Shown one piece after another: positions 6,502 through 29,491 of a stretch of DNA of 64,000 bases (within the stretch, counting starts at the first letter, position 1; each line of letters begins with the position of its first letter). Under the pieces are notes generated by a model. That model was not told the origin of the DNA. It did not search any database and worked only from the letters and a program-made list of their open reading frames with translations. The DNA is from an uncultured Prevotellaceae bacterium (GTDB lineage: Bacteria > Bacteroidota > Bacteroidia > Bacteroidales > Bacteroidaceae): NCBI GenBank assembly GCA_902784615.1, contig CACZVN010000012.1, positions 1-64,000 on the forward strand, read 5' to 3'. The translations under genes and the position numbers were made by a program.

Positions 6502-8970
6502 ATGAAGAAAACGCTATTTATGATGGCTATGGCCTGTATCGCTACCGTCGCACAGGCCCAGAAGCCCGCCATCCCCCGCGACGCGGCACTGGAGGCAAAG
6601 GTAGAGAAAACGCTCGCCAAGATGACCCTCGATGAGAAGATCGGACAGATGCTCGAACTCAACCTTGACATCATCGGAAAGATGACTATTGAGAATGCCA
6701 AGATTGACCGCGAGAAGGTACGTTCCGTGCTACAGCAGTACGGCCGTTCTGATGAGGAGGTTGAGGCTATGGTAAAACTGACGGACCAGGAGATCCTCGA
6801 TAAGTTAGGTGGTTTCCCCGTTGATATTTACCAAGGCGATACCAAGCGCGTCTGGAAGATCAACGAAGTGATGCTCGACACGCTCGTCTCCAAGTGGAAG
6901 GTGGGCTCTATCTTGAATGCCCCAGGCTCCAGTGCTGCCACCGTCGAAGATTGGCAGCGGTGGATTCCACTCATCCAGAAGAAGTCGATGCAGTATCTCG
7001 GCATTCCCGATATCTTTGGTCTTGACCATAACCATGGCGTCACCTATACCCAGGGTGGCACCCTCTTCCCACAGCCCATCAACCTTGGTGCCTCGTTTAA
7101 TACCGAACTGGCCCGCAGGGGGGCAGAGATTACAGCCTACGAGAGCCGTGCTGCCAACTGTCCGTGGGTATTTAATCCCGTGGTCGATCTCAGTCGTGAT
7201 CCCCGTTGGCCCCGTGTCTATGAGAGTTTCGGCGAGGACGCCATCGTGAACTCAAAGATGGTGGTGGCCGAGATCAGGGGCTATCAGGGCGACGACAACA
7301 ACCATATCGACCGTTTCCACGTAGGTACCAGCACGAAGCACTATTTCGCCTACGGTGCCCCTTGGACGGGTAAGGACCGTACGCCTGCCTACCTCTCGCC
7401 GCAGATGATCCGCGAGAAGTATTTCGAGCCCTTCAAACAGGCTGCCCTCGCTGGTACGCTGACGATGATGGTCAACTCGGCCTCTATCAACGGTGTGCCT
7501 GTGCATGCCAGTTATGAGTACCTGACGAAGTGGCTCAAGGAGGATCTCCAGTGGGACGGCTTCCTCGTGACCGACTGGGCCGATATCAACAACCTCTTCT
7601 CGCGCGAGCATGTCGCCAAGGATAAGAAGGACGCCATCCGTATTGCCATCAATGCCGGTATCGACATGTCGATGGATCCCTATAGTGTGGAGTTCTGCAT
7701 CCTGTTGAAGGAACTGGTCAACGAGGGCAAGGTATCCATGGAGCGCATCGATGATGCCGTGCGCCGCATCCTCCGTGCGAAGTATCGCCTCGGTCTTTTC
7801 GACACGCCGAATACGGGTGGCAAGGGCTTTGAGAAGTTTGGTTGCGACGAGTTTGCACAGGCTTCTTTGAAGGCTGCAGAAGAGTCGGAGGTGCTGCTGA
7901 AGAACGATGGTATCCTGCCACTGGCTAAGGGTAAGAAGATCCTGCTCACAGGTCCCAATGCCAACCAGATGCGCTGTCTGCATGGTGGCTGGAGTTACAC
8001 TTGGCAGGGCTCACGTGCTGAAAAGATGTCTGAGAAGTACAACACCATCTACGAGGCACTCTGCAACAAATATGGTAAGGAGAATATCATCCTCGAACAG
8101 GGTGTCACCTATAATGAAGATGGAGCCTACTACGACGAGCACGAGCCGCAGATCCAAAAGGCCGTCGATGCTGCCGCTGGTGCTGATATCATTATCGCCT
8201 GCATCGGTGAGAACAGCTATACGGAGACCCCAGGTAATCTCACGGATCTCTGGCTCTCAGAGAACCAGCGTAACCTCGTGAAGGAACTGGCCAAGACGGG
8301 CAAGCCCGTTATTCTGGTTCTGAACGAAGGTCGTCCGCGCCTGATTGCCGATATCGAACCGCTGGCTAAGGCCGTGGTGGATATCCTTATCCCAGGCAAC
8401 TACGGTGGCGATGCCCTGGCCAACCTACTCGCTGGTGATGCCAACTTCTCTGGTAAGTTGCCTTATACCTATCCGCGTGAGATCAACTCGCTCAACACCT
8501 ATGATTATAAGGTCAGTGAGGAGGTGGGCACGATGGCTGGTGCCTATAACTACGACGCGAAGGTCAGCCTCCAGTGGCCCTTCGGCTTCGGTCTCAGTTA
8601 TACCACCTTCGAATACGCCAATCTGAAGGTTGATAAGGCGAAGTTCTCTGCCGATGACGTGCTCACCGTCAGTGTCGATGTGAAGAATACGGGCAGCCGT
8701 GCTGGTAAGGAGGCTGTGCTCCTCTATTCGAGCGACCTCATCGCTTCTGTCGTACCAGACAACAAACGTCTGCGTGACTTCACGAAGATCGCCTTGGAGC
8801 CTGGTGAGACGAAGACCGTCACTTTCCAGTTGCCCGCCAAGAGCCTCGCTTTCGTAGGGGCTGATGGTAAGTGGACGCTTGAAGAGGGCGACTTCCTCCT
8901 GAAGATCGGCAACCAGACCGTTCCTATTTTCTGCGAGCGCACTAAAGTCTGGGACGAGCCCAATATCTAA
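6502..8970 (+). CDS. Glycoside hydrolase family 3 (beta-glucosidase type)
   Basis: An 822-residue secreted enzyme. A signal peptide [20 protein letters not shown] is followed by the GH3 N-terminal barrel. KHYFAYG around residue 280 and LVTDWADI around residue 357 are conserved, and the Asp of VTDW is the expected nucleophile. The alpha/beta sandwich domain follows, then a C-terminal fibronectin-III-like domain. GH3 enzymes release terminal beta-glucose or xylose from plant glucans and oligosaccharides, here presumably in the periplasm. The neighbouring secreted carboxylesterases suggest plant cell-wall breakdown. A perfect bidirectional terminator separates it from the convergent esterase. 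Confidence 0.92.
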
Positions 8971-9006
8971 ATAGTAATCCCCAGCCAAGTGGCTGGGGAT
9001 TACTAT
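8971..9006. terminator. Bidirectional terminator
   Basis: A perfect 16-bp stem (arm ATAGTAATCCCCAGCC) with a four-base loop AAGT lies exactly between the convergent GH3 and esterase genes and can serve both. The T tract is weak. Confidence 0.75.
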
Positions 9007-10575
9007 TTATTTGCGTGTAGCTTCTGTCTCTTCGCGCCTGACCTTATAGAAGTGATCGACGAAATCGATCTGCTCACGGTTGGGACGCATGATGAGCGAG
9101 GCACCGTTGGCAAACTGCATCGTGGTGGGTTTCGCATCGTCAAACGTAGGCCAGTAGGGCAGGCCCTTGGCATTGGGATTACCCGTCTTGATGAAGTTCA
9201 CCCAGTACTGCTGGATGATCTCTGAGACAGCGGCCTCAGCAGGATACTTGTCGGCCTGTGCCTGGAAGTGGCCATTGAGGAACATGATATCGTCGGCATG
9301 GGCCACACCACGACGACGGGGATCCTGAGAGAAGCTCACCTCTGAGGGCTGGGCGAGGAAGGCGGCGTAGGCAGGACTCTTGCCTGTCTTGGCCTGCAGA
9401 CTGACCCAAGCGTAGGAGGGCCATGCGAAACCCATATCGCGGAAAGCATCGCCAAAGCCGTGCCAGGCCTCATCATCAGTAGCGCCAGGATAGACCTTCA
9501 GGGCCTCAGCAGCCATATCACCAAAGATAGCCTCGACGGTCTTCTGATAGTTCTCTGCCGTCATGTTACCTGGTGCGAAGAGGGCACCCTCGTCAGAGTT
9601 GGTCATCACGATGATGGGTACGTCATTATATTCACCACGCTCGTAGAGGCGGTACTGGTCGTCGCAGATGACATAGCCATCGACACAGGGCCAGAAGCCG
9701 GCAAAGCCCACATCACCGTCGCAGAGTGCCATGGCGTCCATCTTGCGCATCTGTTTGATGTTCTTCTTCTTCAGATGCTTCTGAAAGGCCAGACCCTGTT
9801 GTTCGGCTCCCTTCTGTGAGGCATCCATGCCCAGTGTGCGTGGGGCGTCGCGCCAGGGGGCAAACGAACCTCCGCTCTGACTGATGCTACCATGGAAGAG
9901 ACCCTTGGCGAGCGGAGAGGCACAGAGCATGCTACAGCTGATGGCACCAGCACTCTCGCCAGCGATAGTGACCTTTGAGGGGTCGCCACCGAAGTTGGCG
10001 ATATTACGCTGTACCCACTGCAGGGCGTAGATCTGGTCGAGGATACCATAGTTGCCACAGTGGCCCTCAGGATCTTCTTTTGCGAGTTCAGGATGGGCCA
10101 GGAAGCCCAGTGCTCCCGTACGGTACTCGACGCTGACCACGACGATGCCACGCTGGGCGAGGTTTTTCCACATATCACCACCATACCACTCTGTCTGGAA
10201 ACCACCACCATGGATCCATACTAAGACGGGCAGTTTGTCGCTGGCAGAGGTAGCAGGGGTAACAATACCCAGATAGAGACAGTCCTCATTCATCATGTCA
10301 GCCGTACGGCCAGGACGTGTGGGCTGTGGAGGCATGGGACCGAACTCGTCGCATACTCTCACCCCCTCCCAAGCCTTGGCAGGCTGTGGAGCGCGCCAAC
10401 GCAGGTCACCCACAGGGGGCGCAGCGTAGGGGATGGCTTTATAGACGGCCAACGAACCGTCGAGCACTCCTTCCACATCACCCGTCTCCACGTGCGTTTT
10501 CAATAATGGCTGGCTCTGCACATTGGCAGTCAGACCCAGCAGTCCGAAGACCAGCAAAAACAAATACTTTTTCAT
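9007..10575 (-). CDS. Secreted type-B carboxylesterase
   Basis: A 522-residue alpha/beta hydrolase with signal peptide MKKYLFLLVFGLLGLTANVQ. Diagnostic motifs are EDCLYL near residue 105, the nucleophile elbow GESAGA with Ser about 206, SDEG with Glu about 329, and the His in VAHADD about 425. The family hydrolyses carboxylic esters, often acetyl or aryl esters on plant polymers. It is a paralogue of the esterase at 13190. It is probably periplasmic, converging on the GH3 gene, so a shared role in removing ester decorations from glucans or xylans is reasonable but unproven. Confidence 0.88.
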   Translation of the reverse strand: MKKYLFLLVFGLLGLTANVQSQPLLKTHVETGDVEGVLDGSLAVYKAIPYAAPPVGDLRWRAPQPAKAWEGVRVCDEFGPMPPQPTRPGRTADMMNEDCLYLGIVTPATSASDKLPVLVWIHGGGFQTEWYGGDMWKNLAQRGIVVVSVEYRTGALGFLAHPELAKEDPEGHCGNYGILDQIYALQWVQRNIANFGGDPSKVTIAGESAGAISCSMLCASPLAKGLFHGSISQSGGSFAPWRDAPRTLGMDASQKGAEQQGLAFQKHLKKKNIKQMRKMDAMALCDGDVGFAGFWPCVDGYVICDDQYRLYERGEYNDVPIIVMTNSDEGALFAPGNMTAENYQKTVEAIFGDMAAEALKVYPGATDDEAWHGFGDAFRDMGFAWPSYAWVSLQAKTGKSPAYAAFLAQPSEVSFSQDPRRRGVAHADDIMFLNGHFQAQADKYPAEAAVSEIIQQYWVNFIKTGNPNAKGLPYWPTFDDAKPTTMQFANGASLIMRPNREQIDFVDHFYKVRREETEATRK

Positions 10576-21281: not shown

Positions 21282-23120
21282 TTATTTGTAGATATGCCCA
21301 TCATCATCAATTAGGAGGATGGTGAGCGAACCATTGGGCAGCAAAGGAGCGCAATACTCTGCACAATGGCTGATGATGGTGTTGGCGAATGGCTGGAGTT
21401 TGTCTTGGGGAAGTAATTCCCAGAGTTCGCGTGCTAAGGTAATCTCGCTGATATCAAGATCACAACCAGATTCTTGAAGCATCTGCTGGATGAATTCTTT
21501 GTCCATCGTCGCTTTAAGACTATGGGTGTCAAGATGACCAGCAGCGAGTTTGACGGCCTTTCCCAACATCACGCCAAGGGTGACATTCTTGATATCGAGT
21601 TCGTGGGCGATCTTCAGTGTCTCACCGATATAGTTGCCGTATTCCACAAACGCCTGTTGGGGCAGTTCTGGATAGAGCGCCTTCACAAAACGCTCGCTCT
21701 TACCACCACTATTGATCACCACGCGCTCAGTGCCAGAGGCCTGCGCCACCGTCATACACTTACGGATGCTCTCAATGAAGGCCTCTTCCGAGAAAGGCTT
21801 CACAATGCCAGAGACACCAATGATCGAGATGCCGCCCTCTATGCCCAGACGGGGATTAAAGGTCTTTCGGGCGATCTCTGCGCCCTGAGGTACGGAGATG
21901 GTGACTGTCACATTGGGGTCAGGACACTTTGTGTCATCACCATGACACAAAGTGTCCTGACCCCAATGTGACAAATTCCGGCGGATCATCTCGCGAGGGG
22001 CTTTGTTGATGGCAGGTTCACCAGGCGGATAGTCAAAGCCGGGAAGTGTGAATCTTCCCACGCCCTCACCTCCAAGAATCTCGAAGGTCTCGGATGGTTT
22101 GACACTCGCTCTGATCTCTAATCCATTCGTTACATCTGGATCATCACCAGCCTCCTTAAAGACAGACGCATAGCCGTCGCCATAACTCACTGGCACATAA
22201 ATCGTCTCACCGTTAGGCAGCACCACAGGCACTTCAAGGGGACGGTTTTTTTGTCGCACAAAAGAACCGTCCCCCTGTGAGGCTAACACCGCAGCCACAG
22301 CTGCAGCCGTCGCACAAGTACCTGTCGTCAGTCCACTATGCAGGGGATAGAACTCTGGCAATAGTTTCTCTACTGCTCGTCTTAATCCATAAGGCCCATT
22401 GACATATTCTATATGTACATTCTGTGGATTTGGAGTATGTGGCGGATAGTTTGGGCGCTCTACGACGAAGACTTTAATGCCAGCCTGTCTGGCAGCATCC
22501 ACCTTTTCCGTAAAACCTCCACTAAGCCCACTCTCCTTTGTAATGATGGCTTGGGGCTGAAGGTCGCGGATAAGATCCGAGGTATCATCCGTCTCATAAT
22601 AGACCAGCCTCTCTTCAGGAAAACGATTCGCTTTGGCAACAAAATGCGAGGCACGACGATTGAGAATACGGAACCAACATGTATCATGTTTCTCCCAAAA
22701 AGCACTTAGTCGTCCAATAGTTCCCACGCCAGTCAAAGCCAAGAGTCGTTCTATATGATTATCTTCTAACTGTTGCAGAGCTTCGTCGTAGTCCTTGCAC
22801 CAGATGAGATCCTGGTCGTGTGGTGGGTAAATCCTGTCGTATCGGATAATTGGAGCCTGAATGTGCTTGGCGAGGAATTGCAGATTACGATGCAGTTCCT
22901 CAGCAAAGGGATGGGCAGCATCGACAATCAGACGGATATCGTGCTCACGACAACAGGCGATCATCTCTGGTACCTCCATGCCTCCCGTCAGATGAATGCC
23001 ATGCACCAGTTCTATCTTCTGCCCGTCACTAAGAGTAGAATAATAATAGGTTGTACCAGCCTCCTCCAGCACCTCTACAGCCTTACGCCCTTCCGTCGTT
23101 CCTCCGAATACCAGTATCAT
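21282..23120 (-). CDS. cbiJD: CbiJ-CbiD fusion (precorrin-6A reductase / C1-methyltransferase)
   Basis: A 612-residue bifunctional enzyme. Residues 1 to about 255 are CbiJ/CobK (VFGGTTEGRK at the start, DAAHPFAEEL near 67), which reduces the corrin ring at precorrin-6A. Residues about 260-612 are CbiD (GLTTGTCATAAA, NPRLGIEGGISIIG), which methylates C-1 of cobalt-precorrin-5B. Two palindromic elements are embedded in frame in the CbiD part, at about residues 282-294 and 383-404; both fall in variable loops. It starts 18 bases after a small secreted-protein gene and lies apart from the riboswitch operon, so its regulation may differ. Confidence 0.9.
   Translation of the reverse strand: MILVFGGTTEGRKAVEVLEEAGTTYYYSTLSDGQKIELVHGIHLTGGMEVPEMIACCREHDIRLIVDAAHPFAEELHRNLQFLAKHIQAPIIRYDRIYPPHDQDLIWCKDYDEALQQLEDNHIERLLALTGVGTIGRLSAFWEKHDTCWFRILNRRASHFVAKANRFPEERLVYYETDDTSDLIRDLQPQAIITKESGLSGGFTEKVDAARQAGIKVFVVERPNYPPHTPNPQNVHIEYVNGPYGLRRAVEKLLPEFYPLHSGLTTGTCATAAAVAAVLASQGDGSFVRQKNRPLEVPVVLPNGETIYVPVSYGDGYASVFKEAGDDPDVTNGLEIRASVKPSETFEILGGEGVGRFTLPGFDYPPGEPAINKAPREMIRRNLSHWGQDTLCHGDDTKCPDPNVTVTISVPQGAEIARKTFNPRLGIEGGISIIGVSGIVKPFSEEAFIESIRKCMTVAQASGTERVVINSGGKSERFVKALYPELPQQAFVEYGNYIGETLKIAHELDIKNVTLGVMLGKAVKLAAGHLDTHSLKATMDKEFIQQMLQESGCDLDISEITLARELWELLPQDKLQPFANTIISHCAEYCAPLLPNGSLTILLIDDDGHIYK
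21907..21972. repeat. In-frame palindromic element, family A copy 1
   Basis: A perfect inverted repeat: 31-bp arms at 21907-21937 and 21942-21972 with loop CACC. The arm core is GGGGTCAGGACACTTTGTG. It lies inside cbiD and is read as a peptide containing GQDTLCHGDDTKCPDP. It resembles REP/palindromic elements of the kind mobilised by REP-associated tyrosine transposases, none of which is encoded in the window. Confidence 0.9.
22238..22274. repeat. In-frame palindromic element, family B copy 1
   Basis: Inverted repeat GGGGACGGTT / AACCGTCCCC extended inward by T/A pairs to a 17-bp stem with one T-G pair and a three-base loop. Inside cbiD it is read as QGDGSF..QKNRPLEVP. Confidence 0.85.
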
Positions 23121-23138
23121 AATTCGCCTAAGGCATTG

Positions 23139-23543
23139 TTACTTGTTGTCGTATTCGAAGTAGTCGCGACGGAGGGTAATCTCTGTGTCAACCTGCTCGG
23201 GCATGATACCTACCATCAGACAACGGCCTGTGAGATCGTTCCCACAGGGCTTCAGGTCAAGTTCAAGATAGGTATTCTCTCCGAGATCCTTACGGATGTG
23301 GATATTCTCACCGTCGAAGGTCATCTTCGGATCCTTATAGTCTTCAATACGGTAGCGGTAGAGACTTTCGACCTTCAGTCCGTTGCTCTGCGGGTCAGTG
23401 TTACCTGCCTCCAGCACGAGTATCAGTTCAGGTACGTTCTTGCCTACCCATCGCCATTCTCCCACGAGGCTGTCAGCCGTAACGGGGATGGTCTGGGCCT
23501 GTGCACTGCAGATGCTGCAGAGCCACAGTATCAGTATGGTCAT
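23139..23543 (-). CDS. Small secreted protein, function unknown
   Basis: A 134-residue protein beginning MTILILWLCSICSAQAQ, a clear signal peptide, then a beta-rich mature part (LVGEWRWVGKNVPELILVLEAG region) that could be lipocalin-like. I do not recognise the family. A TTG twelve bases upstream is an alternative start but overlaps the broken hepT. It is followed 18 bases later by cbiJ-D, so the two may be co-transcribed; a link to cobalamin is not shown. Confidence 0.55.
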   Translation of the reverse strand: MTILILWLCSICSAQAQTIPVTADSLVGEWRWVGKNVPELILVLEAGNTDPQSNGLKVESLYRYRIEDYKDPKMTFDGENIHIRKDLGENTYLELDLKPCGNDLTGRCLMVGIMPEQVDTEITLRRDYFEYDNK

Positions 23544-23551
23544 TATCTGTT

Positions 23552-23766
23552 TCAATACTTCTTCAGCAAATCCTTTATGGCTAATCCGAGTGGGCCTAAA
23601 TCGTCATTGATTACTGATACGATTATGTCCTCATCAATATTGGCATACTCATGAGATATGATGTTCCTCATCCCATAGATTGCCTGCCATGGAATGTCTG
23701 GATAAGCTCAATAGACTCCATAATATCTTCGAGCCTATCATGGATGGTCAGTTGGTTTTCAGACAT
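23552..23766 (-). pseudogene. hepT remnant (HEPN ribonuclease toxin), internally deleted and frameshifted
   Basis: The 5' part reads MSENQLTIHDRLEDIMESIELIQ. Reading one frame over, the 3' part reads YPDIPWQAIYGMRNIISHEY and ends DLLKKY. RNIISH is the HEPN catalytic R-x4-H motif. The central 40-50 residues expected in HepT (normally 110-130 residues) are missing, and the junction near 23700-23705 shifts the frame, giving an early TGA. Its start overlaps the mntA stop by eight bases, the usual arrangement of MntA/HepT pairs. Confidence 0.7.
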
Positions 23767-24052
23767 AAATGACATCTTTTAATATGTTCGACTTAAACAG
23801 CGGACGTAGGCTATCCCTGAATCTAACAAGATCTACCTCACAGGCAAATAAGGTTTTTAGGGCCTCCTTCAATTCGTACATCAATTTAAGAGAGGGTTTT
23901 TCAACCTCAACGACTATATCAATATCACTACCCTCAGTATTCTCTTTTCTGGCTACAGAGCCAAAAATACCCAGTTTAGTGATACCATACTTCTGGCTAA
24001 ACATAGCTTTGAAGTCAGCTAATTTCTTGATACAATCTTGAAGTACCAACAT
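23759..24052 (-). CDS. MNT-type nucleotidyltransferase antitoxin (MntA)
   Basis: A 97-residue minimal nucleotidyltransferase with GSVARKENTEGSDIDI (GSx10DxD motif) at residues 31-46. In MntA/HepT systems the nucleotidyltransferase modifies the HEPN partner with AMP and blocks its ribonuclease. It has its own TATCTTTG box at 24076. Since the partner gene here is broken, the antitoxin would be an orphan. Confidence 0.85.
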   Translation of the reverse strand: MLVLQDCIKKLADFKAMFSQKYGITKLGIFGSVARKENTEGSDIDIVVEVEKPSLKLMYELKEALKTLFACEVDLVRFRDSLRPLFKSNILKDVIYV

Positions 24053-24075
24053 ACCTGTCCTATTAAATTACGCTG

Positions 24076-24083
24076 CAAAGATA
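24076..24083 (-). promoter_or_regulatory. -7 box TATCTTTG for mntA
   Basis: Consensus -7 box on the minus strand, 23 bases upstream of the mntA start. Confidence 0.55.
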
Positions 24084-24217
24084 AATAATTAACTCTAAAG
24101 TTCCAAACTTTTTGTAGAGTATTTGGCAAAATTGCGACAAGATTTTGGGCCTTGCGGACTGTTTGTCGCAAACGAGCCAGGTTGTCGCAACTAACTGAAA
24201 AAGAATGTGATGAATTA

Positions 24218-24249
24218 TTTGGAATCAGACGAAAATCCCTCTATCTTTG
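24218..24249 (+). promoter_or_regulatory. Full consensus promoter into non-coding region
   Basis: TTTG at 24218-24221, a 20-base spacer and TATCTTTG at 24242-24249 form a complete Bacteroidetes promoter. Downstream is a T-rich leader, a 16-codon ORF (ATG 24342) and a hairpin GGCTCGCA-TCAT-TGCGAGTC around 24360-24380. No full gene follows, so it either makes a short RNA or is left over from a lost gene. Confidence 0.5.
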
Positions 24250-24396
24250 CATCAGATTTAAGATTCATACATAAGTTTGGTTTTTTAGTTAGTTCTTTTT
24301 TCATTTGTTTGTTAGTTTTGGGTTTTAGGTTTAAGTTAGGCATGATGAACACAAACAGGGCTCGCATCATTGCGAGTCCTGAGTCGTTATAATAAT

Positions 24397-24513
24397 CTAC
24401 TTCAAAAGAACCTTGATTGTTTTTTCTCCAATCTTTACAATACCGATATCTCCACTATGGAGCGTTGTTCCAATAACAGTAGTCTCTGCAGAAGCCTTGG
24501 CTGCAAATATAAG
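24397..24513 (-). pseudogene. Possible relic of a type IX secretion C-terminal domain
   Basis: A minus-strand frame ends ..SGDIGIVKIGEKTIKVLLK at a TAG (24397-24399). The glycine-rich strand followed by KxxKVLxK resembles the last strands of Bacteroidetes Por/T9SS sorting domains. No start codon or passenger domain is present, so at most this is a tail fragment. Weak evidence. Confidence 0.3.
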
Positions 24514-24610
24514 AACTTTTCTCGAATGATGCAAGTAAATAGTAGAAAAAAACAAGTATTTGTTAGCGTGATGGAAATGGCGACGCTTACTAGCATTTTT
24601 TTTGATAAAT

Positions 24611-24946
24611 AGGGTGTCAGGGTGTCACAACCCTTTGTACATCGGCATTTGCACCCTGTTTGAAGGGTGTCAAGGGTGTCACGAGGGTGTCACACTGAAA
24701 AAAGGTATATTACCTTTGACTTGCTAAGCAATATCCTGTGCTTGAAAAGCATTGAGTTTTTGCTGAATTCTCGAGAGAATTGAAGCAAAAAGCAGTCCTT
24801 TAGCATCGTCAGGAGCCTCTTAACGATTCAATTCTCGAGAGAATTGAAACACAAGAATACCTGTCACCATCCTGTCACCCTTGACACCCTCAAAAAGAGG
24901 GTGCATCCCCTGTGTTTATCGGCATTCTGTCACCCTGACACCCTCC
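24611..24946. repeat. Inverted-repeat element built from GGGTGTCA units
   Basis: The left arm (24611-24698) has at least five GGGTGTCA-type units, several in tandem. The right arm (about 24859-24946) carries the same series inverted (TGACACCCT, TGTCACCCT), including a shared GCACCCT and ATCGGCAT block. Arms are imperfect, about 88 bp. The centre holds no ORF but several hairpins. It fills most of the 920-base gap between mntA and cbiG-F. It could be a MITE-like element or iteron array; I know of no named family. Confidence 0.6.
24719..24860 (+). ncRNA. Candidate structured RNA inside the inverted-repeat element
   Basis: Directly after a TACCTTTG box (24711-24718) come consecutive hairpins: TTGC-TAA-GCAA, TGCTT-GAA-AAGCA, a long stem TTTTTGCT..AGCAAAAA enclosing AATTCTC-GA-GAGAATT, and a second copy of the last unit. 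The 19-base core AATTCTCGAGAGAATTGAA occurs at 24766-24784 and 24830-24848. Transcription is inferred only. Two repeats with a 45-base interval are too few to call CRISPR. Confidence 0.35.
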
Positions 24947-24975
24947 AACACAAAAAATAGTAGGTAAAGAGTATA

Positions 24976-26763
24976 TTACGAAGCTTGTTCGTCGTCGCCT
25001 TTTCTAAACAAGTGGGTGAAGTGTTTGGAATAAAGATCTGAGAGGCCTTGGCGGTTGTCGATGGCCTCGCCCACGACGAGCATCGTGGTAAGGGTGAGAT
25101 GGTTGTCGTGGACGATCTTGGCAAGGTCTTTGAGCTGACCACGATAGATCTTCTGGTCTGGCCACGTGAGATGATAACAGGCAGCCACGGGCGTGTCCTC
25201 AGGATACTCCTGAAGCAGTTCGCGCTGGACATCATCAACGATGGAAGCTGAGAGGAAGATACACATCGTACTCTGGCTGCGTGCCAATAGATGCAGTTGC
25301 TCTTTCTCTGGCATGGGGGTACGGCCCTCGCCACGTGTGAGGATAATCGTCTGGCAACGCTCAGGAATCGTGAACTGACTCTGTAACTCAGCGGCTGCAG
25401 CGAGGAACGAAGAGATACCTGGTGTGATGTGATAATCCATGCCATTCTGATCGAAGAAAGCCATCTGCTCCTGGATCGCACCAAAGATACATGGATCGCC
25501 CGTATGCAGACGAACGATGAAGTGCCCCTTGTCATAGTGCTCCTTCATCAGCGCGCACTGTTCTTCGAGCGCCATATCAGCAGAGGAGCGCACGACGGCA
25601 CCGGGTTTGTGGCAGTCTGTCAAGGCCTTAGGCACCAGCGAACCTGCATATAGAATAAGGTCAGCGCGCTCTAACATTTTACGGCCTCGCACACTGACGA
25701 GATCAGGATCGCCAGGACCAGCACCCACGATTTCGATGTGGCCTTGTTTCTCACGAAGATATTTATAGTCGATGGCGAGGGCAGCCGTCCAGTTCTTACC
25801 CTTCACCTTGGGAACAATCAATTTGCCATGGTTTGCACCGAGGATGGCCGCTGCCTCACAGACAGAGGGCGTACCCACATGCTTCTCGACGGTCTGACTG
25901 GGGTTAGGCACTTCAACCTTGGCCAGTTCCTCTGCCGTGTAGAATACCAACTCCTCCCCTAAATCATCTACGAGCATCGCACAAAACTCTTCTTCTTTCT
26001 TCACATCGATGGTGCAATAGCGCTTGTAGCAGGGCAACACGCCAATCTGGCTCATGGCCTCATCGATCTCGTCGTAGATGTCCTCATAGTCATCAGGATG
26101 ACTGGCGAGTCCGAAGCCTAAGGCAGCAATCATGGGTACAAAATGCAATTCGAGCACACCGTATGGTGCACAGAGATTGTAGGGTGTCACCAGGATGACA
26201 AGCTTATACTTCTTGGGATCCACCTCCTCGAGGCTCTTGACGACAGTCACATGTGGGGGAAGTGTCTTCTCCAGATAATCCGTACCCTCGTCGCAGATTT
26301 CCATCATCAGGGCTGTAGGCTCACGATTCACGAAGGCATAGATGCACTCATTCATATCATCATCGCTGGCGATAGCCCAGTGGAATCGTTCTGCAAAGGT
26401 GTCAAGTGCCCAGAGTCCTGCATTGTCGCTCTGGGTGGTGATTACCTCGCGAGCCCCTATTAGTGCTGCCACCTCGTGCGCCAGATCATTCGCACCTCCG
26501 ATATGTCCTGAGAGTACGGAGATGGCGTTCAGCCCCATGCTATCGATACAGACGACAGCCGGATCCTCGTGCTTATCCTTGATATAGGGAGCGATGGTGC
26601 GTACACAGATACCCATCGCGCCAATGAAGACAAAGGCATCGTACTGTTTCCACAGTTTACCCACATCAGTACGACTGATGACCTTGGCACCAAGTTCACG
26701 TTGCAAGGTCGTGGCGATGTCCTTGCCTGTCTCATTAATCTGTATGACGGCTATCTTCTGCAT
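24976..26763 (-). CDS. cbiGF: CbiG-CbiF fusion (cobalt-precorrin-5A hydrolase / C11-methyltransferase)
   Basis: A 595-residue bifunctional enzyme. Residues 1 to about 335 are CbiG (GAMGICVRTIAPYIKDK, LSGHIGGANDLA), which opens the delta-lactone ring of cobalt-precorrin-5A. Residues about 343-595 are CbiF/CobM (IVGAGPGDPDLVSVRG, LHTGDPCIFGA, ITPGISSFLAAAAEL), the SAM-dependent C-11 methyltransferase. The 3' end of the riboswitch operon; it overlaps cbiE-T by 13 bases. No palindromic insertion was seen in this gene. Confidence 0.92.
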   Translation of the reverse strand: MQKIAVIQINETGKDIATTLQRELGAKVISRTDVGKLWKQYDAFVFIGAMGICVRTIAPYIKDKHEDPAVVCIDSMGLNAISVLSGHIGGANDLAHEVAALIGAREVITTQSDNAGLWALDTFAERFHWAIASDDDMNECIYAFVNREPTALMMEICDEGTDYLEKTLPPHVTVVKSLEEVDPKKYKLVILVTPYNLCAPYGVLELHFVPMIAALGFGLASHPDDYEDIYDEIDEAMSQIGVLPCYKRYCTIDVKKEEEFCAMLVDDLGEELVFYTAEELAKVEVPNPSQTVEKHVGTPSVCEAAAILGANHGKLIVPKVKGKNWTAALAIDYKYLREKQGHIEIVGAGPGDPDLVSVRGRKMLERADLILYAGSLVPKALTDCHKPGAVVRSSADMALEEQCALMKEHYDKGHFIVRLHTGDPCIFGAIQEQMAFFDQNGMDYHITPGISSFLAAAAELQSQFTIPERCQTIILTRGEGRTPMPEKEQLHLLARSQSTMCIFLSASIVDDVQRELLQEYPEDTPVAACYHLTWPDQKIYRGQLKDLAKIVHDNHLTLTTMLVVGEAIDNRQGLSDLYSKHFTHLFRKGDDEQAS

Positions 26764-28037
26764 CTTAGTATTTCTATGGGGTTGAAGTCGTTGAGTTGGA
26801 TACGGAGGGGGGACTCTTGTCTCAGACCGAGTTCTGCGCAGGCCTCATCCCAGAGTTGGCGACTATCAGTGGGCACCATAGGTGAGGTGACGCTGTTGAA
26901 GACGATCACACCATCACCAGCGAGGACAGTCAGCACCTTCGCCATGATCTCTTTCAATTTTCCGCCATGTCCACCAATAAAAACGGCATCAGGACGGGGG
27001 AGGGTAGAGAGGTCTGTTTCGAGGAAATCGCCAATATGGATGTTGATGCCAGGGGCACCAAAGCGACGGGCGTTCTCATGGAAGATCGCCTCGCACTCAG
27101 GTCGGATCTCGAAGGCTTCGATATCCAAATGGGGGAACTGCAGACGGGCCTCGATAGAGACGCTGCCTGTACAGAAACCTATGTCCCAGAAGATGTGCCT
27201 TTGAGGCAGTTCGAGTGCCTGAAGCGTCAGCAGACGGATGGGCATCTTAGTGATCATCTTCTCGCGACCGTCAAGTAGAGAGAATTCTGCGTCGGGGATG
27301 CCGAAGGGGACTCGCAGGGGACGGTTCTTCTGAGTTTGACCCCTTGAGGCGGAATTGTCAAACTCAGAAGAACCGTCCCCAGTGAGTCCCAGCAGCACGC
27401 AATTGGGCATTGAGAATGTTGCCTGGGTGGCTTCTTCGAGAGTAAGCGTTGTGACCTTTTCGAGCGCAGGATTCCCCAAGTGCTCGCCCACGGACATCTG
27501 ATAATCTGTATAGCCATAGTCCAGCATCCGTTGGGCAATAGCGGCAGGAGTATGTTCACGATCTGTCAGGATGCCGATCTTCCCTATCTTTTCGATGAGT
27601 GCTTTGTCGAACTCAGGCCATGGACGACCCGTGAGAGAGACGATCCGCATATCATGATAAGGCTTCAGCAGTCGATGGGCCAACATCTGGAGGGAGTTAA
27701 AGGCGGGGTAAACCACCAACTTGGCCCCAGGCATCTTACGTTGAATGGTATTGGCAAAGCCAAAAAATAGCGGATCGCCAGAAGCAAAGACAACGATAGA
27801 CTGACTGGCATCCTGATACTTAGATAAATGCTTGAAACACAAGTCGTATTGGTCAAAGACATCATCCAGAGGAACCGTGATATTGATCCAATCTGCTCCT
27901 TCTGGCAGGAACGGTGCCATGATCTCATGATGGCGCTTACCGCCAGAAAAGACTTTCCCCTGGCGGATGACATCCAACACTTCTGGAGGGAAGAATGGCT
28001 GCGGATGGTCTGTGATGCCTATAACGATAAACTTCAT
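26751..28037 (-). CDS. cbiET: CbiE-CbiT fusion (precorrin-6B C5,15-methyltransferase / decarboxylase)
   Basis: A 428-residue CobL-like protein. CbiE spans about residues 1-215 (FASGDPLFFG around 86) and CbiT about 245-428 (IFWDIGFCTGSVSIEA, the SAM-binding motif). Together they methylate C-5 and C-15 and decarboxylate the ring. A family B palindrome encodes about residues 219-240 in the linker between the two domains, where an insertion should be tolerated. It overlaps the cbiH-C stop by four bases. Confidence 0.92.
   Translation of the reverse strand: MKFIVIGITDHPQPFFPPEVLDVIRQGKVFSGGKRHHEIMAPFLPEGADWINITVPLDDVFDQYDLCFKHLSKYQDASQSIVVFASGDPLFFGFANTIQRKMPGAKLVVYPAFNSLQMLAHRLLKPYHDMRIVSLTGRPWPEFDKALIEKIGKIGILTDREHTPAAIAQRMLDYGYTDYQMSVGEHLGNPALEKVTTLTLEEATQATFSMPNCVLLGLTGDGSSEFDNSASRGQTQKNRPLRVPFGIPDAEFSLLDGREKMITKMPIRLLTLQALELPQRHIFWDIGFCTGSVSIEARLQFPHLDIEAFEIRPECEAIFHENARRFGAPGINIHIGDFLETDLSTLPRPDAVFIGGHGGKLKEIMAKVLTVLAGDGVIVFNSVTSPMVPTDSRQLWDEACAELGLRQESPLRIQLNDFNPIEILRCRR
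27317..27380. repeat. In-frame palindromic element, family B copy 2
   Basis: Perfect 24-bp arms at 27317-27340 and 27357-27380 with a 16-base loop, beginning GGGGACGGTTCTTCTGAG. Flanking GGGACTC / GAGTCCC extend the pairing outward. It is read as GDGSSEFDN..TQKNRPLRVP in the CbiE-CbiT linker, the same frame as copy 1 in cbiD. Confidence 0.92.
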
Positions 28038-29491
28038 AAGTCTCTCCCTGGTTTGAGTTGTGCAGCATCGTCGAAGGTCAGGATTGCGTTACAGAGTGTG
28101 GCGGCGATATTGCTTCCGCCCTTGCGACCCTCCACGATGATCTTGGGAATATCACGGAAAGGCTTTACCATGTGCTTCGACTCACGGACGTGGACGAAAC
28201 CCACTGGGGCAGCAATGATACCAGCAGGACGAGCCTTTCCTTTACGGATCAGGTCACAGAGTTCCATCAAAGCCGTGGGGGCGTTGCCAAAGGCGAAGAG
28301 GGCATCAGGATGTTCCTCGACAGCCAGACGGATACCTGCCTGCGTACGGGTAATCTCCTGCGAAGAGGCCATTTCTGCCACACGGGGATTAGAGAGATAG
28401 CATTTCGCCTCGATACCTAAGCGTTGGAGGGCACCCTTACGGATACCACTCACCACCATTGTCACGTCTGTCACGATCGTCTTCAGACTACCCTCACGTA
28501 CTTTATTATATAATGTCTCCACAGCCCCCTCGTCCGTGTAGAGGATCTGTTCCATATTGAAGTCGGCAGTGGTATGGATGGCATGTAGCAGGGCCCATTT
28601 GTGATCCAAGGGATAGTCCTTCTTCTTCAGAAGATCCTCGATGGTATGGAAAGAGTCCATCATAATCTGCTGGCCAGGTTTTTCCGCAACCTCCTGATCC
28701 TCACGATAGTAGCCGCGCGGTGTAATCATCTTGCCATCCACGACATACGACTGTGAATTACCAATCAGGATGACGGTAAACATATCCACCTGTTCAGGAT
28801 CGAAGGCACCCAGAGTGGTGATAACCACCTCCTGATCCTCACGTCCTGCCTGACGGACATAGCCCACTGGCGTCTCTTTCGAACGCTTCTGCAAGAAGAG
28901 TTCCTGCAGACGGTAGAGCTGCCAATACCGGCCATGTGACTTGGGGTTATAGATTGCCGTCACGAAGTCACCTTCAGCAGCCGCTGTGATCCTCCGCTCG
29001 ATGACCTCCCAGGGCGTCATCAGGTCACTCAGCGAAATGATACACAGATCATGTCCGATGGGTGCGCCCAACAGCGATGCAGCCTTCTGGAAAGCAGAGA
29101 TACCTGGCAAGACTTCGATTGTCACAACGGGGTCAGGAACCTTTGTGTCATCGGGATGACACAAAGGTTCCTGACCCCGTTGTGACAACTGACCCCGTTG
29201 TGACATCTCATAGATCAGCGGTGCCATGCCATAGATACCGGCATCACCAGAGGAGATCACCACAACGGTCTTCCCCTGCTCTGCCAACTCAAAGGCCTGT
29301 TCTGCCCGTTCGCGTTCCCGTTTCATCCCTGTGTCGATACACTCGCATCCCTCAGAGACGTATGGCTCGATAAACTGGAAGTAATACTTATACCCCACGA
29401 TGACATCCGCCTCGCGCACAGCCTCGAGTACGGCGGGGGTGATATCTTCCTTGCTACCAGGTCCGATGCCTGCTACGATGATCTTTCCCAT
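28034..29491 (-). CDS. cbiHC: CbiH-CbiC fusion (C17-methyltransferase / precorrin-8X methylmutase)
   Basis: A 485-residue bifunctional enzyme. CbiH covers about residues 1-270 (VAGIGPGSKEDITPA, ISSGDAGIYGMA, VLPGISAFQKAA) and performs C-17 methylation with ring contraction. CbiC covers about 285-485, with HAIHTTADF around residue 306 holding the catalytic His of the methylmutase. A family A palindrome encodes about residues 96-123, just before VLPGISA. Gene order in the operon: cbiHC, cbiET, cbiGF, each overlapping the next. Confidence 0.92.
   Translation of the reverse strand: MGKIIVAGIGPGSKEDITPAVLEAVREADVIVGYKYYFQFIEPYVSEGCECIDTGMKRERERAEQAFELAEQGKTVVVISSGDAGIYGMAPLIYEMSQRGQLSQRGQEPLCHPDDTKVPDPVVTIEVLPGISAFQKAASLLGAPIGHDLCIISLSDLMTPWEVIERRITAAAEGDFVTAIYNPKSHGRYWQLYRLQELFLQKRSKETPVGYVRQAGREDQEVVITTLGAFDPEQVDMFTVILIGNSQSYVVDGKMITPRGYYREDQEVAEKPGQQIMMDSFHTIEDLLKKKDYPLDHKWALLHAIHTTADFNMEQILYTDEGAVETLYNKVREGSLKTIVTDVTMVVSGIRKGALQRLGIEAKCYLSNPRVAEMASSQEITRTQAGIRLAVEEHPDALFAFGNAPTALMELCDLIRKGKARPAGIIAAPVGFVHVRESKHMVKPFRDIPKIIVEGRKGGSNIAATLCNAILTFDDAAQLKPGRDL
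29121..29204. repeat. In-frame palindromic element, family A copy 2
   Basis: Perfect 31-bp arms at 29121-29151 and 29156-29186 with loop CGGG, followed by an extra half arm (CTGACCCCGTTGTGAC, to 29204). Read as GQEPLCHPDDTKVPDP in CbiH. Relative to copy 1, both arms carry matched changes (TT to AC, and CAC to ACC), so pairing is kept. Confidence 0.92.

Follow-up and report, generated by a model that had tools for sequence, protein, structure and literature searches.

A 64,000-nt stretch of contig CACZVN010000012.1, from an uncultured Prevotellaceae bacterium, carries four palindromes in three cobalamin genes, each of them open and in frame with its host. (This stretch is called the window, and positions refer to it; the genome to which it belongs is labelled G000, its relatives have other G-numbers and loci have L-numbers.) The host genes, all on the minus strand, encode a CbiJ-CbiD fusion (21282–23120), a CbiE-CbiT fusion (26751–28037) and a CbiH-CbiC fusion (28034–29491). 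Two elements lie in frame in the CbiD domain. Element A (21906–21973) is a perfect palindrome of family A, GGGGTCAGGA, with 32-bp arms (21906–21937 and 21942–21973) that match at 100% around a 4-nt loop, while element B (22238–22274) is a short, 37-bp palindrome of family GGGGACGGTTC. Element C (27307–27390), an 84-bp palindrome of the same family as B, is in frame between the CbiE and CbiT domains. Element D (29119–29188), in frame in the CbiH domain, is again a perfect palindrome of family GGGGTCAGGA, with 34-bp arms (29119–29152 and 29155–29188), a 100% match and a 2-nt loop. It is followed by a partial direct repeat of its own end (29189–29205; 18-bp spacing), which lies outside the palindrome and adds six extra codons. 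The family of B and C is a sister of the family of A and D. The site of B is common to the relative G060 (L079), and C is also present in G061 (L080). The 7-bp centre of B is inverted relative to its counterpart at L079 9745–9781 (GTGCGAC/GTCGCAC).

A first-pass annotation had described A and D as perfect 31-bp palindromes that differ at five arm positions, each difference being mirrored in the opposite arm. The arms are indeed perfect, but they are 32 and 34 bp long, the extents are those given above, and the sequence after 29188 is the direct repeat rather than part of the hairpin. Four of the differences (positions 8, 9, 20 and 21) are mirrored as described; the fifth (position 34) falls in the central loop and is unmirrored. 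In-frame placement in the two genes was also correct, the genes themselves being fusions, and the in-frame peptides are WGQDTLCHGDDTKCPDP for A and RGQEPLCHPDDTKVPDP for D. The single reading frame holds for these two copies and not for family A as a whole, which is read in two frames, RGQEPLCH and GSGTFVSS.

The palindromes of the window are confirmed as members of a genuine, multi-copy set. A strict pattern, GGGGWCRG-N20-50-CYGWCCCC, matches 17 palindromes in G000, against none for the reversed pattern used as a control, which rules out a chance origin in this genome; the further genomic copies that had been anticipated thus exist, and 16 of the 17 are in frame within open reading frames (ORFs). 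A covariance model built from 25 copies, with an E cut-off of 0.001, was used to score the first-look candidates of three genomes, 150 of 528 for G000, 150 of 378 for G060 and 150 of 381 for G061. In G000 it located at least 26 places (E up to 0.001), of which 23 of 26 were counted in frame. The copies added by the model are degenerate and also mostly in frame, so that the coding location is unlikely to be an artefact of the strict pattern. In frame were also 11 of 13 copies in G060 (at least 12 model places and one pattern match) and 13 of 17 in G061 among the model matches listed; the three genomes together give 47 of 56, again among matches listed. The G000 copies counted as not in frame are C3:200623, C1:91516 and C9:67167, the last of which is spanned by an open frame of 211 aa but lies just beyond a 652-aa ORF. 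A doubtful copy on G061:C31 was counted as not in frame, and a G060 copy in Sua5 as in frame: it failed the automatic rule (an ORF of at least 180 aa spanning the element with a margin), yet a Pfam domain crosses the insert. By the automatic rule, the in-frame copies number 16/17 in G000, 5/6 in G060, 3/5 in G061 and 15/15 in G105. Seven palindromes were found in a comparison set of 80 cbi loci, 1.45 Mb in all, taken from other assemblies with Prevotella, Prevotellaceae, Bacteroidaceae or Bacteroidales in their titles, all seven in frame and two of them from G060/G061.

The hosts in G000 include DnaG, Mfd (twice), BirA, PrmC, a RecD2-like helicase (twice), TatD, a U32 peptidase, a LytTR regulator and the cobalamin enzymes. 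A Pfam scan of 32 host ORFs, from genomes other than G105, G085 and G092 and apart from the extra covariance-model matches, gave a family match for 30, many of them spanning the insert or flanking it on both sides; the hosts at L172 and L175 had no Pfam match. Misassembly of a metagenome-assembled genome is an unlikely source, since the same insertions recur in separate assemblies (G000 and G060 in DnaG; G000 and G061 in BirA, Mfd and CbiE-CbiT). Across a genus sample of 299 genomes, including G000, at least one match to the pattern occurs in 99 and at least ten matches in ten. The reversed control matches one to seven times in some of these genomes; one or two matches in a genome prove nothing. 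The distribution is patchy, and coding and extragenic modes are both found within one genus.

Each element consists of two inverted hairpins like repetitive extragenic palindromic (REP) units, separated by a short spacer. The arm of the palindrome is itself such a hairpin, composed of an outer stem, two variable bases, a GGGGWCRG head and an inner stem. The stems are family-specific and have matching partners (for example ACTCA/TGAGT or TGTCACA/TGTGACA), whereas GGGG-C-G are invariant head columns in 25 copies. Elements range in size from 37 to 97 bp. At least two frames are in use within a family; the copies are stop-free in the frame used, and on average about half of the six frames are open. 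Lone single units also occur, in the BirA loop of L273 (by eye) and beside genes for REP-associated tyrosine transposases (RAYTs). One G000 copy (C9:67167–67260, L236) is chimeric, a family-A unit adjoining a GGGCCAGGCCCC unit like that next to the RAYT gene of G060.

What do the genes look like where the element is missing? At the site of D, a native segment of 27 nt in L079 (whose CbiH is 92% identical) corresponds to the 84 nt of element and repeat in G000, where that segment is no longer recognisable. This CbiH slot could be read in 72 of the 80 cbi loci. It is 12 residues long in 52 of them, and recognisable units are found in only three of the 72, all of other families: L106 has a short GGGGACAGTCCCC unit, and L088 and L124 have GGGGTCAGGCCCC-type units, the type that surrounds the RAYT gene of G201. 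The peptide of A was not seen in the 39 CbiD homologues displayed, and the inserted peptides were thus not found to be shared by most CbiD or CbiH homologues. Among solved homologues, the length of the CbiH site varies (long in 2zvb_A, short in 3nut_A). For BirA, 30 loci were taken from the 97 genomes with a match, together with L025 and L245, and the flanking motif pair could be read in 26 of the 32, two of them duplicates. BirA without an element has a short loop between ETDSTN[RH]WL and VVA[DE]YQTAG; where an element is present, nothing remains of that loop. For CbiH and BirA, the two sites aligned closely, the comparison indicates that the native loop is replaced rather than added to.

In other species, five further BirA loops (L261, L265, L273, L284 and L285) hold what appear by eye to be single units or collapsed palindromes. 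Decay in place is seen in two cases: element C is 51 bp shorter in L079, with the frame kept, and a G000 copy on C15 measures 31 bp where G060:C183 has 70 bp. Other repeats use the same loops. L263 and L274 share another repeat family (KAREAEALG...) in the BirA loop, and in Prevotella-group genomes the CbiE-CbiT loop (L086, L090) and the CbiD loop (L092, L132, L138, L097, L127, L115) hold unrelated, low-complexity or repeat-like in-frame peptides (INDNSC, LSPLTS, HSSFFIH, SIIN[CY]QLSI, SLREGLGV).

Candidate transposases are found in congeners. G031 has five matches to PF01797, and its RAYTs on C38, C146 and C157 adjoin the TTTTGTTACATC family, family A and the CTGTCAG family, respectively. These three proteins score above the cut-off for PF01797 and reach 62–74 bits for REP_Tyr_transpos against a cut-off of 80; no helix-turn-helix family match was found in them, and the RAYT motifs NHVH and YIHQNP were read from the sequence. 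Whole palindromes stand on both flanks of the gene on C157 (L195). In a set of 12 RAYT loci, GGGGWCRG units occur on both sides in six: L361 (G105), L362 and L367 (G085), L368 (G092), L067 (G050) and L360 (G201). A unit is present on only one side at L364 and L065, and another hairpin on one side at L363, while at L371, L069 and L073 nothing convincing was found on both sides of the gene. One-sided units occur at L178, L194 and L364. Among the cbi loci the nearest relative is G060, whose intact RAYT shares 59% identity with the family-A RAYT of G031 and has a unit, GGGCACA-AAGGGGCCAGGCCCCAT-TGTGCCC, on one side; G061 and G032 carry RAYT short pieces. In G201 (L341–L358 and L360), a separate and mostly extragenic family, GGGGTCAGGCCCC, surrounds the RAYT gene, and the same family is seen in the CbiH slot of L088 and L124.

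The likely interpretation is that the palindromes are non-autonomous mobile elements of the REPIN (REP doublet forming hairpin) or terminal inverted repeat (TIR) type, present in frame in genes, most likely moved by RAYTs and probably translated in place of the native loop. The earlier idea of a translatable selfish palindrome is supported as the best reading. Copy number, reading frame, the empty site for D, the RAYT neighbours in congeners, the mirrored differences and the re-use of loops are all observed. The elements would be REPIN-like, with two inverted REP-like hairpins and family-specific stems around a GGGGWCRG-headed loop, and would belong to the class of units that flank the genes of RAYTs or TIR-associated tyrosine transposases (TIRYTs; IS200-like, HUH Y1) as inverted repeats. 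Such enzymes would most likely move the elements in trans. In this lineage nearly all copies found are in genes, where they lie in frame with no stop codon at sites that have a different or shorter loop in homologues. The inserts probably enter the protein as segments of about 20 residues that stand in for the native loop, presumably without harm to the enzyme; the manner in which the native loop was lost is also something that we infer.

Several observations weigh against this interpretation. The Y1 REP-associated transposase that had been suggested is present in relatives, with palindromes adjoining, but G000 itself, an 84%-complete assembly, yielded neither a RAYT nor a remnant of one. Six of the 12 RAYT loci do not have the two-sided arrangement, and a convincing unit was seen at only five of 30 PF01797 loci in the genus (L065, L067, L068, L070 and L073), which indicates that the Y1 transposases of the genus mostly belong to other types. 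Neither a target-site duplication nor a target motif was established. The GGGGACGG head is one base off the GGGGWSAS motif of TIR/TIRYT elements. The position of the inserts in loops rests on sequence alignments. The in-frame share is lower in other genomes, 10/14 in G085, 6/10 in G092 and 15/29 examined in G031 (37 in the genome), and falls to 4/18 in G201 and 0/27 examined in G032 (70 in the genome). Finally, the coding bias is left unexplained by neutral insertion followed by loss of broken genes, even if in-frame inserts are harmless.

This last point was examined with a neutral model in which insertion is random, all disrupting inserts are lost and every in-frame open insert is tolerated. 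With a coding share of 0.70–0.90 and the number of open frames varied, 28–67% of the survivors are predicted to be in frame, and the observed counts (23/26, 15/15 and 47/56) have probabilities of 1e-2 to 4e-18 across settings. If fewer inserts are tolerated, the gap between the observed and the neutral share is wider. There is thus a preference for genes in these genomes, either at insertion or at retention. The rival that survives best places it at retention: insertion would be random, with intergenic copies lost or eroded faster than in-frame ones. This is a serious possibility, although the balance is against it. It would agree with G031, which has five PF01797 matches and 14 of 29 examined copies outside the in-frame class, compared with one of 17 in G000, where no RAYT is detectable. 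However, the near-perfect and presumably young copies of G000 are also nearly all in genes, and in G032, which has RAYT short pieces only, all 27 examined copies (of 70) lie outside genes.

Why are the same loops occupied again and again? Homologous hosts that both carry an in-frame element form 41 cross-genome pairs, 21 of them with insertion points within three residues. When the two elements belong to different families (head identity of 14/22 or less), 12 of 29 pairs, non-independent because they share genes, are within three residues, where random positions in a protein of 300 residues would give about 0.7. The re-used slots are in eight genes, those for BirA, the RecD2-like helicase, CbiE-CbiT, PrmC, a BT4734-like gene and three unnamed ones; DnaG supplies one further pair, four residues apart, and the CbiH slot of the window is a further case (L106, L088 and L124). 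Such re-use could result from the tolerance of the loops alone or from replacement of resident elements. In a bolder version of the latter, to be held only tentatively, certain loops are re-usable slots: a frame-keeping replacement at the DNA level removes the old loop and exchanges the palindrome already there, or its scar, for one of another family, and both arms of each new copy are made on the template of one arm, which is why mutations come out mirrored. If true, a transposase would be continually rewriting the loops of housekeeping proteins, as a standing mechanism.

The matched arms call for an explanation of their own, for which the first-pass annotation had offered either selection on structure or the copying of whole hairpins. 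An unfiltered count of mirroring, limited to in-frame copies and to arm positions -9 to 19, took in all pairs of the same genome and family at different sites (nine genome-family sets). Of 226 changed pairs, 136 are mirrored. By comparison, same-site, same-family pairs from two species (n=8, presumed to represent one insertion each) have eight of 32 mirrored (Fisher p 2e-4, the pairs being non-independent). The sets differ widely. Mirrored and unmirrored changes number 18/0 in G000 family A, 38/23 in G000 TGAGT, 7/0 in G031 family A, 19/14 in G031 CTGTCAG, 26/0 in G031 TTTTGT, 4/4 in G060 TGAGT, 8/44 in G085 TGAT, 4/1 in G092 TTTTGT and 12/4 in G105 AACG. Three of the nine sets are thus fully mirrored (51/51 changes), while G085 TGAT runs the opposite way (8/52 mirrored). 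An earlier count on hand-picked, mostly near-perfect pairs (26/31 vs 8/35) was dropped in favour of the unfiltered one. Among the family A and TGAGT copies of G000 and G031, many differ in the two bases ahead of GGGG (positions -2 and -1) and in those between head and inner stem, and in near-perfect copies these bases are mirrored across the arms; the per-position table omits imperfect copies, which biases the pairing.

Copies that have spread thus tend to have matching arms, and the arms of copies that stay in place tend to drift. Because different-site copies are more often mirrored than same-site copies, the mirrored changes lean towards spread by copying, in which each copy may be templated from one arm; a master copy kept perfect by the needs of the transposase would give similar mirroring. 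Selection that keeps the hairpin in place as an RNA or DNA structure (a terminator, attenuator or mRNA stabiliser), with coding incidental, is unlikely. The perfect arms and the RNAalifold result, at least one compensatory change in 12 of 17 pairs among 25 copies, are what such selection would produce, but it was rejected as the main cause since same-site copies change mostly one-sidedly, with 24 of 32 changed pairs unmatched in two species. The 51 bp lost in frame from one copy, in a gene that was retained, and the unrelated host genes with varying insert positions also argue against it.

Equally doubtful is the suggestion that the encoded peptide is itself useful, as a domesticated loop or tag, and that this accounts for the coding bias. 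The same loops are indeed occupied recurrently across species (DnaG, BirA, Mfd), but a single loop may be filled by different families or frames, and thus by unrelated peptides, and shortening in frame is tolerated. Removal or skipping of the insert by splicing or translational bypass, yielding a protein without it, is very improbable: native loops of homologues are short and the arms could form strong mRNA hairpins, but neither process needs copies that are in frame and stop-free, and without the insert the protein would be too short at CbiH and BirA, which no longer have the native loop.

In-frame coding palindromes are present here in Prevotella of the gut, and close relatives possess a candidate transposase. 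Judged by the copies examined, genomes of this single genus span everything from exclusively coding to exclusively extragenic, and elements of different families come to lie in one and the same loop. Selfish DNA may supply new protein segments, and these features make this old question testable by strain comparison and mobility assays. Elsewhere in the window, at 8968–9009, a hairpin with perfect 20-bp arms, possibly a terminator, lies where two convergent ORFs meet.

How do these elements compare with known systems? They would work like the REPIN/TIR elements of RAYTs while affecting proteins like the Rickettsia palindromic elements. The likeness to the latter drawn in the first-pass annotation extends to the translatable, in-frame palindromes, whereas the anatomy is that of RAYT-associated elements. 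No account of these elements in Prevotella, or of in-frame REPINs in Bacteroidota, was found in open-licence PMC text. The closest relatives seem to be the TIR/TIRYT elements (RAYT group 1, or TnpA-Y1 subclass 2.1; Di Nocera 2013, PMC3733652; Quentin 2018, PMC6006769). As described in the relevant part of PMC3733652, TIRYT transposons carry a GGGGWSAS motif, which the GGGGACAG and GGGGTCAG heads fit. Subclass 2.1 is suspected to be the TIRYT group in the corresponding section of PMC6006769, which reports no REP-like sequences at subclass 2.1 genes. As in TIRYTs, inverted units flank a Y1 transposase gene, here in congeners and not in G000, and some TIR families multiply in the genome, often as dimers, according to the sections of PMC3733652 and PMC6006769 that deal with them. 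Unlike in TIRYTs, each of three transposases in a single genome has a distinct multi-copy palindrome family beside it, and several genomes have the majority of their copies in frame within protein-coding sequence.

With REP/REPIN elements (GTAG/CGTC), the present ones have in common the inverted pairs of hairpin units, the family-specific stems and the association with RAYTs (GTAG type). They differ in having no GTAG/CGTC head, and in the replacement of native loops and the re-use of loops. REP/REPIN elements are mostly extragenic, whereas 16/17 copies in G000 and 15/15 in G105 are in frame in genes, yet all 27 examined in G032 are outside. Intragenic REP/REPIN copies are known, most of them in Opitutus terrae and R. 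conorii as far as covered in PMC3733652. The portions of PMC3733652 and PMC10969869 on these repeats describe CGTC repeats, including Rickettsia RPE-4 and RPE-6, as apparently lacking a transposase, and present in-frame palindromes in coding sequence as mainly a trait of Rickettsia, with sporadic examples in other organisms. Rickettsia palindromic elements, as depicted there, are likewise in-frame palindromes in unrelated genes, apparently tolerated, but measure about 150 bp with a conserved peptide, compared with 37–97 bp, several frames and another sequence here; the present ones, moreover, are in Prevotella and are linked to RAYTs in congeners. Nematomorpha, too, have perfect inverted repeats within coding genes, as described in the relevant passages of PMC6649704; those reside in animal mitochondria, reach 284 bp and are presented there with no mention of a transposase.

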